The translations under genes were made by a program, and so were the position numbers. From positions 1,116,001-1,180,000 of the forward strand of contig NZ_CP021431.1 of NCBI RefSeq assembly GCF_002158905.1: 64,000 nt of DNA, read 5' to 3'. Shown here in pieces: positions 53,466-55,016 of this stretch. This DNA is from Yoonia vestfoldensis. Lineage in GTDB: Bacteria; Pseudomonadota; Alphaproteobacteria; Rhodobacterales; Rhodobacteraceae. Numbering within the stretch: position 1 is the first letter of the stretch; the number at the start of each line of letters is the position of its first letter. The notes below the pieces were generated by a model, which saw only the letters and a program-made list of their open reading frames with translations, did no database searches and was not told the origin of the DNA.

Positions 53466-53494
53466 AAAAGGGCGGCTCACCGAGCCGCCCTTTT
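53466..53494. terminator. bidirectional rho-independent terminator
   Basis: A 9-bp stem GGGCGGCTC/GAGCCGCCC with an ACC loop is flanked by AAAA on one side and TTTT on the other, so it can serve coxM on the plus strand and infC on the minus strand. Confidence 0.9.
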
Positions 53495-53504
53495 GCCATT
53501 GGTC

Positions 53505-53526
53505 GGATGGGTGAGATCACCCATCC
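53505..53526. repeat. 10-bp palindrome beside infC repeat array
   Basis: GGATGGGTGA, two bases, then TCACCCATCC: a perfect inverted repeat. It is similar in size and pattern to the palindrome at 31875-31898. It lies between the terminator and the most distal infC-tail copy. Confidence 0.7.
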
Positions 53527-53534
53527 TACGGATA

Positions 53535-53824
53535 TCACTTTGACAGCGGGCCGATCAGCATGACCATCTGGCGACCTTCCCGCGTGTTTGCTTGCAAACA
53601 TGCTCCAAGCGGCAGGTGTTTGCCTGCAAACACCGAGAGCTGGCCGGCCTGCAGACCTACTTTGATAGCGGGCCGATCAGCATGACCATCTGGCGGCCTT
53701 CCCGCTTGTTTGCTTGCAAACATGCTCCAAGCGGCAGGTGTTTGCCTGCAAACACCGAGAGCTGGCCGGCCTGCAGACCTACTTTGATAGCGGGCCGATC
53801 AGCATGACCATCTGGCGGCCTTCC
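53535..53824. repeat. 122-bp tandem array containing copies of the infC 3' end
   Basis: Two full 122-bp units (53535-53656 and 53657-53778) precede the infC 3' end itself (53779-53824). Each unit holds 46 bp identical or nearly identical to the last 46 bp of infC, stop codon included, plus 76 bp unrelated to infC. The 76-bp parts differ at one base between units. They carry two palindromes, TGTTTGC-TT-GCAAAC and GGTGTTTGC-CT-GCAAACACC. The infC-tail copy furthest from infC carries three differences from the other two. No protein is assigned to this stretch. Confidence 0.93.
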
Positions 53825-54324
53825 ATTTTGGGGAAGTTTTCGACCTTGCCGGTTTCTTTGGTATCCTCGGCCACGCGTTCCAGCAATTGGCGTCCCAATT
53901 CCTGATGCGCCATTTCCCGACCACGGAAACGCAGGGTGATTTTCACCTTGTCGCCGTTTTCCAGAAATTTGAACACATTGCGCATCTTGACTTCGTAATC
54001 GTGGGAATCAGTGTTCGGGCGGAACTTGATTTCCTTGATCTCGATGATCTTTTGCTTTTTGCGCGCTTCGGCTTCTTTTTTCTGGGTCTCGTATTTGAAC
54101 TTGCCGAAATCCATGATCTTGCAGACCGGAGGAACGGCATTCGGTGAAATCTCTACCAGGTCAAGCCCGGCCTCTTCGGCCATCTGCATCGCCCGTTCTG
54201 GCGATACGACGCCGACGTTTTCGCCGTCTGCACCGATCAGCCGGATTTCGGCTGCCCTGATCCGTTCGTTGATCCTTGGGCCGGTTTCGCGCTGTGGTGG
54301 CGCGTTGTGGGGTCTGCGTCCTAT
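53779..54324 (-). CDS. infC: translation initiation factor IF-3
   Basis: Binds the 30S subunit and checks start-codon pairing, 181 residues. Core blocks are [40 protein letters not shown] and [12 protein letters not shown]. The first ATG (54189) lies inside the conserved N-terminal domain. Extending upstream gives [21 protein letters not shown], the family's normal N terminus, with no ATG, GTG or TTG; the codon at its start is ATA (54324-54322), 8 bp after an AAAGGA site. Non-canonical starts are a known feature of infC and allow IF-3 to limit its own synthesis. The 3' end (last 46 bp) is repeated downstream. Confidence 0.92.
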
Positions 54325-54512: not shown

Positions 54513-55016
54513 ATGCCTATGAGAGCGCTTGCCATCTTGATCATTCTCGCCGTTGCGGGCTTTTTCGGCTATCAATATGCCGTCGAAGGCCGCAGCCCCA
54601 ATGCCGCCATCGGTGTGCTGACAGGGGCGACCGCCGCCGCTGAGGCCGAAGCCGCCGCTGCCGAAGCTGCCGCTGCCGAAGCCGAAGCCGAAGCCGCTGC
54701 CGCAGAAGCTGCCGCCGCCGAGGCCGCTGCCGCAGAAGCTGCCGCTGCAGAAGCTGCTGCTGCAGAAGCTGCTGCCGCCGAGGCCGCTGCTGCCGAAGCG
54801 GCCGCCGCTGACGTCGTGGTGGATGACATCCCCGCGACCGTTGATTTGCTGACGATTGACGGCTTCAACGCCGATCAGGTCATCGCGCTGATCGCAGGCT
54901 CTGATCTGGCCGAGGCGGAAAAGACCACGCTGATCTCTGCTGTTACCGCCGCCCAGAACAGCCCCGCGCTGTTGCAGCCAATGCTGGAACGTCTGCAACA
55001 GGCCTTGGGCGAATAA
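54513..55016 (+). CDS. membrane-anchored alanine/glutamate-rich repeat protein
   Basis: Protein of 167 residues, function unknown. An N-terminal membrane helix (ALAILIILAVAGFFGYQYAV) is followed by a central region of about 60 residues made almost only of Glu and Ala in EAAAA pentapeptides, which would form a long rigid helix. A C-terminal domain follows (VVDDIPATVDLLTIDGFNAD, then SDLAEAEKTTLISAVTAAQN and LLQPMLERLQQALGE). The pentapeptide region is a 15-bp DNA repeat, prone to length change. AAGGA precedes the ATG. It is divergent from infC, with a 188-bp space between the two starts. Confidence 0.8.
   Translation: MPMRALAILIILAVAGFFGYQYAVEGRSPNAAIGVLTGATAAAEAEAAAAEAAAAEAEAEAAAAEAAAAEAAAAEAAAAEAAAAEAAAAEAAAAEAAAADVVVDDIPATVDLLTIDGFNADQVIALIAGSDLAEAEKTTLISAVTAAQNSPALLQPMLERLQQALGE

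Follow-up and report, generated by a model that had tools for sequence, protein, structure and literature searches.

In the 64,000-nucleotide stretch of Yoonia vestfoldensis DNA analyzed here (the window), the infC gene ends three times over, which raises the question of how an essential gene acquires extra copies of its own end. The gene lies on the minus strand and carries IF3_C and IF3_N domains; in the ORF list its coding region spans 53779..54189, counted from the first in-frame ATG, and since the IF3_N domain match begins at profile position 29, the true start lies further upstream than this ATG. The stop codon occupies 53779-53781, and the proximal tail copy (53779..53824, minus strand, stop TAG) is therefore the coding end. 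Sequence comparison within the window places behind it, in exact register and at a spacing of twice 122 bp, a middle copy (53657..53702, minus strand), identical to the proximal one, and a distal copy (53535..53580, minus strand, stop TGA), each tail being 46 bp long. Over 44 nt (53537-53580), the distal copy shares 95% identity with each of the others, and across the full tail it departs from them by two synonymous changes and by its stop codon, TGA versus TAG. Chance does not account for three copies of 44-46 nt that lie in exact register and are 95-100% identical.

The tails are separated by two near-identical spacers of 76 bp (53703..53778 and 53581..53656), and the two 122-bp units are 98% alike. 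Each spacer is a hairpin cassette composed of two elements on the plus strand. HP2 (53707..53722 and 53585..53600) is the palindrome TGTTTGC-TT-GCAAACA, built on GTTTGC-N2-GCAAAC. HP1 (53733..53760 and 53611..53638) is a hairpin of the form GGCA-stem-loop-stem-GAGA with the palindrome GGTGTTTGC-N2-GCAAACACC at 53737-53756 and 53615-53634; its first copy scores 62.4 bits with our covariance model R1, which counts this copy among its 14 training sequences, and its second copy was recognized by pattern and by the same model. The earlier note on this DNA had described the three tails, their spacing and the spacer palindromes, and we find the array as it was described. Beyond the distal tail lies what we read as native downstream DNA (53466..53534), with a palindrome at 53502-53529 and a terminator-like repeat at 53466-53494. 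A search of the genome itself finds the 122-bp unit at infC alone. Among the gene's neighbors are a sulfate-reduction pair and genes of the CoxE, XdhC and FAD-binding types; the adjoining ORF (54513-55016) contains a long Glu/Ala-rich low-complexity repeat and has no Pfam match.

The polarity of the array is apparent from a sister species that has no unit (G044). Its single infC end is of the distal type, with a TGA stop, and is followed by a palindrome and then by a GGGCGGCTC terminator, like the DNA after the distal copy of the window, whereas the two proximal copies of the window end in TAG and run into a spacer. The claim of the earlier note that the distal copy is the original gene end is thus borne out. 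In two slightly more distant genomes, G055 and G040, infC stops with TAA and TAG, respectively. We searched for the unit in 99 genomes, 56 of them Yoonia including the present one (infC was not matched in 4 of the 56, and about 30 were read as sequence). Six Yoonia genomes carry it, with two units in G000 and G048 and one in G016, G039, G025 and G031; one further genome, G014, shows a scar-like remnant (L030). When 30 infC genes are placed in a tree, these genomes form two separate Yoonia clades.

The same arrangement recurs beyond the genus. A search for infC tails in 394 genomes of the family, mostly one per genus, matched 292 of them (102 without match) and found two or three tails in six, each from a different genus (G000, G144, G174, G275, G282 and G327), with copies 103-151 bp apart and spacers of 57-105 bp. 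The second tail has a common starting point within infC in every one of these genomes, with one base changed in G282. The GGCA/GAGA hairpin is present, on the strand opposite infC, in the spacers of five of them (Yoonia, G144, G174, G275 and G327), where a second hairpin or palindrome abuts the tail; the G282 spacer lacks HP1 and has another palindrome only. The duplicated stretch measures about 46 to 93 bp and, judged by eye, mostly ends near the stop codon; it runs past the stop by 47 bp in G144 and by about 41 bp in G327. The last infC tail has no HP1-HP2 behind it, except for a degenerate HP1-like stretch in G327.

The displaced tails have diverged from the proximal ones as coding sequence does. 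Across nine genomes, the differences comprise 22 synonymous and 3 nonsynonymous changes, with G144 counted once, when 77% nonsynonymous would be expected without constraint (P 1e-11); counting one displaced copy per genome gives 17 to 3 (P 8e-9). Since the differences are almost all synonymous, the displaced ends were coding during most of their separate history; the bias is what replacement by an end that is foreign or was exchanged would leave, and it does not match a duplicate that has long been idle. The two spacers of G048 are one base apart, whereas its proximal and middle tails differ at 5 positions, so that tails and spacers do not move together as a fixed block.

The reading that we favor, with modest confidence as a whole, is that of a site-specific, gene-end-restoring infC cassette, built on a mobile hairpin family and resized by recombination between tails. 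A cassette of two hairpins would enter infC at one set codon, 15 codons ahead of its stop (ATG^GAAGG-like), bringing a second copy of the gene end and displacing the older end downstream; because it comes with that second end, IF3 would stay intact. Units would then be gained or lost by recombination between the tail copies, and displaced and current tails probably exchange with each other or come from other genomes. The mismatch in G048 argues against a cassette that carries its own tail, unless tails recombine. The earlier note had proposed that a small tail-carrying element entered infC and then duplicated: polarity, recurrence and the fixed codon speak for the entry, and it is literal membership in the attL/attR elements, taken up below, that is not supported.

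Plain tandem duplication is in our estimate unlikely, yet it is the strongest competitor; the earlier note had named simple tandem duplication after one insertion as its main alternative. Hairpins at the gene end would cause replication slippage that duplicates tail plus spacer, with unequal crossing-over setting the copy number. The near-identity of the spacers within a genome, the inclusion of downstream DNA in the G144 and G327 duplications, which also weighs against the cassette, and the occurrence of hairpin arrays beside tRNA genes (L349, L351 and L352) are all in its favor. It accounts less well for a left boundary that is identical in six genera, for last tails that, the degenerate stretch in G327 aside, lack the hairpin pair, and for displaced tails that diverge as coding sequence. 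Tandem duplication probably explains one unit versus two, and their origin less well; we infer that insertion, not local duplication, gave rise to the infC cassettes.

An integrative element could leave a similar trace: with the infC end as attB, a deleted element would have left a 122-bp attL-attR remnant to which further units accreted. The known elements that integrate at gene or tRNA 3′ ends share with the array the replacement tail, the fixed crossover point and the displaced native tail, and the coding-like state of the displaced tails and the recurrence at one gene end fit as well. However, tails that are only 103-151 bp apart in all six multi-tail genomes leave a spacer too small for a recombinase, the duplication length varies, and the hairpin family occurs elsewhere without duplicated ends. 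A domain search of 10 ORFs around infC in the window found no recombinase, and the segment 53400-53900 has no match among 50,697 phage records and, among 72,556 plasmid records, matches only an infC gene. We consider such a relic improbable; of the attL/attR logic invoked by the earlier note, the tail restoration is borne out and literal membership is not supported.

The hairpin on which the cassette would be built is far more widespread than the cassette. The HP1 core came to light in secondary matches of the spacer and was followed by pattern, alignment, pair counts and the covariance model R1, trained on 14 members, of which 3 lie in IS genes; R1 matches consequently include its own training sequences, its E-values are rough, and the finder scripts are heuristic. 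HP1 combines a near-constant GGCA/GAGA internal loop with a covarying stem: among the 14 sequences, nine pairs have changed on both sides, and none of 500 shuffles reaches any of five measures. In 52 unique elements of 39 nt, 97.9% of stem cells are paired, against 87.1% in the highest of 1000 shuffles, and 27 elements of 40 nt give 96.9% against 84.6% (1000 shuffles); for 31 elements of 41 nt, symmetric pairing (61.5%) is not above that of the shuffles (61.8%), which we put down to a bulge. Of the 52 members of 39 nt, 31 have G-T as their first inner pair and 20 have G-C; since G-T would read A-C on the opposite strand, it is probably the GGCA strand that folds. At E ≤ 1, R1 matches are found in 40 of the 56 Yoonia genomes, with 1-9 per positive genome; at E ≤ 0.001 they are found in 83 of 295 Rhodobacteraceae genomes, with up to 18 in a single one (G102). 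Of 385 genomes drawn from the class, eight have a match at E ≤ 0.0001, three of these belonging to the family. HP1 is thus a large, Rhodobacteraceae-centered family of structured hairpins of about 40 bases. It is apparently undescribed, judging from Rfam, where no family scores above its gathering score on the hairpins and the matches nearby are tRNA and rRNA, and from literature searches, which returned nothing on a GGCA/GAGA hairpin. The main texts of PMC3733652 and PMC12306157 contain no mention of Rhodobacter, Roseobacter or Ruegeria, and in passages of PMC7656271 and PMC9239051 infC appears only as a tree marker.

Many members of the family lie inside transposase genes. Scanning one genome per species yielded at least 120 stretches with the hairpin, mostly in Rhodobacteraceae, with a few other hosts among the matches listed, e.g. 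Labrenzia, Pararhizobium, Robiginitomaculum and one Haliea bin. A candidate empty site, in some cases a weak one, was identified for 61 of 208 instances among the fetched loci. The clearest comparison is within the single contig of G196, where one IS has three copies with a 38-bp insertion and eight without (one partial): the insertion sits immediately 5′ of a GAC-GGC-GGC stretch (DGGY), which we take to be catalytic, with neither duplication nor loss of target. Among 146 unique sites, the element begins with CRYTG in 128 and with TRTYA in 16, and has GGCA/GAGA at the foot of its stem. The target is YYATC^G for the CRYTG elements (G in 96 of 128) and YYATC^C for the TRTYA elements (C in 15 of 16), which couples the end of the element to the next target base. 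The inserts measure 36-42 bp, apart from a single one of 46 bp, and 60 of the 146 lengths are divisible by three. A Pfam scan of 138 ORF pieces from 163 distinct instances (16 without a usable piece; duplicates and infC left out) found beside the insertions, in the 25 of 35 families listed, exclusively transposase, integrase-core or helix-turn-helix domains, including IS66, IS110, IS4/5 and IS91 types. One IS can hold several elements in both orientations; overall 57 are sense and 60 antisense, a count that depends on the choice of ORF. By eye, many insertions lie directly at codons that look catalytic, namely DDE aspartates and the IS91 HUH motif (L155, L167, L178, L215, L223, L231, L234, L239, L246 and L262).

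Copies that share an insertion site often show low dN/dS. L224 and L234, which share hairpins of 36 and 39 bp, have a dN/dS of 0.07 over 303 aligned residues, and L195 and L239 have 0.07 over the 97 residues holding their shared 40-bp site and, in two further stretches, 0.09 and 0.21. Values for the remaining site-sharing pairs lie mostly between about 0.02 and 0.5, and several comparisons are near or above 1, probably reflecting wrong frames. Such low values would suggest that the interrupted transposase may still work, but repeated independent insertion at one site is plausible: a tree of 15 IS3 copies is compatible with it, and L042 and L187 have unrelated hairpins at a shared site. Nor do the copies of G196 that bear the hairpin make up a single SNP lineage, and they have eight hairpin-free neighbors. 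For the four IS copies of G170, all with hairpins, no intact frame was found after removal of the hairpins identified. Separately, IS3 copies of G026 (L339 and L340) are interrupted at one internal site by about 1.6 kb of DNA in which an IS110-like frame is recognizable by eye, and partial matches in G048 break at the corresponding position.

The hairpin also stands at the ends of other genes, where the earlier note had advised looking for the unit. A rule of thumb sorts 104 Yoonia places into 18 at tuf and 17 at groEL, all on the 3′ side and on the strand of the gene, 6 infC units, 5 tRNA/rRNA spacers, 4 extra 5S copies and 40 of the form found in IS genes, leaving 14 without class, several of which prove on inspection to be tuf, groEL or infC; the positions entered for L052 and L037 are off, and L092 is probably misplaced. 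The outer stems at groEL and tuf change with compensation (GCAGGT/ACCTGC, GTGGGT/ACCCAC). At two tuf ends (L070 and L102), the palindrome before the hairpin appears by eye to include the end of tuf, like an inverted copy of the gene end. In other genera, tandem arrays bearing the hairpin lie directly beside tRNA genes, with three repeats of 87 bp (L349), three of 117 bp (L351) and two of 89 bp (L352). Each of the three rRNA operons of G031 (L093-L095) has an extra, degenerate 5S interrupted by a hairpin beside an intact 5S, and G020 (L142) has a similar pair of 5S copies. The 5S insertions were rejected as proof that an insertion is tolerated, because the hairpin of G031 sits in the extra degenerate copy with the intact 5S alongside.

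In the cassette reading, HP1 would accordingly be a member of a mobile family defined by a near-constant GGCA/GAGA loop and a changing but paired stem, whose members are found as precise, duplication-free inserts in transposase genes and as standing 3′-flanking structures of groEL, tuf and some tRNA and rRNA genes. The infC cassette has neither the CRYTG/TRTYA 5′ end nor the YYATC target and possesses a second hairpin; a single mechanism for both is therefore an assumption.

A more far-reaching reading, which we consider speculative and hardly probable, takes the GGCA/GAGA hairpin as a putative micro-element that inserts precisely at conserved transposase codons, guided by its 5′ end, and is then cancelled by RNA removal, skipping or precise excision, as a bacterial counterpart of micro-introns, with infC housing a larger form that carries its own gene end. 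Two known kinds of palindrome invite comparison. Rickettsia palindromic elements are inserted inside genes; the hairpins described here are mostly 36-42 bp long, are not a multiple of three in 86 of 146 cases, lie beside transposase domains and have a near-constant internal loop. The byps of yeast mitochondria are short hairpins inserted into reading frames, with several in one gene; here both orientations occur. MITEs differ by their terminal inverted repeats and target duplication, features that the clean 38-bp insertion in G196 does not show.

REP elements (GTAG and CGTC types), like the hairpins, are small palindromes that look mobile, lie near gene ends and have a conserved foot: the unit of about 40 nt, the lack of target duplication, the 5′ target motif and the coupled element end all fit, and CGTC-type REPs are reported in all alphaproteobacterial orders in the text of PMC3733652. 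The GTAG tag is absent from the element end in the logo of 146 unique sites. A tag of the CGTC type (CGTC, TGTC or CCTC at one end, followed by a stem that begins with AT) is not seen at the stem foot, but read on the other strand the element begins CCCTCTC and often AT. The stem is hypervariable, many copies are inside transposase genes, and the few copies per Yoonia genome, and at most 18 in G102, contrast with the high copy number of REPs. The Y1 domain (PF01797) is above cut-off in 8 of the 56 Yoonia genomes, and an R1 search at 12 of 26 fetched PF01797 loci gave a best match of 11.9 bits (E 0.42). Neither Y1 genes in Yoonia genomes nor the 10 ORFs around infC supplied a mobilizing gene, and a Y1/RAYT partner, rare in Yoonia and with no hairpin near the genes checked, is not supported. 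Movement of a REP-type element by a Y1/RAYT transposase is thus the least probable explanation, and a very doubtful one.

The hairpin family is a larger finding than the infC array: tiny structured insertions of one kind are present in 83 of 295 genomes that sample the genera of a major family of marine bacteria. They interrupt transposase genes cleanly, and they come back at a single codon of an essential gene, which is left undestroyed. If the hairpin is mobile by itself, a mechanism is needed beyond any enzyme found here; if it spreads on IS elements, it would be a parasite of transposons. The filled and empty sites within one genome offer a concrete, testable system, and the distribution suggests that many broken-looking transposases of these genomes have been broken by one and the same element.
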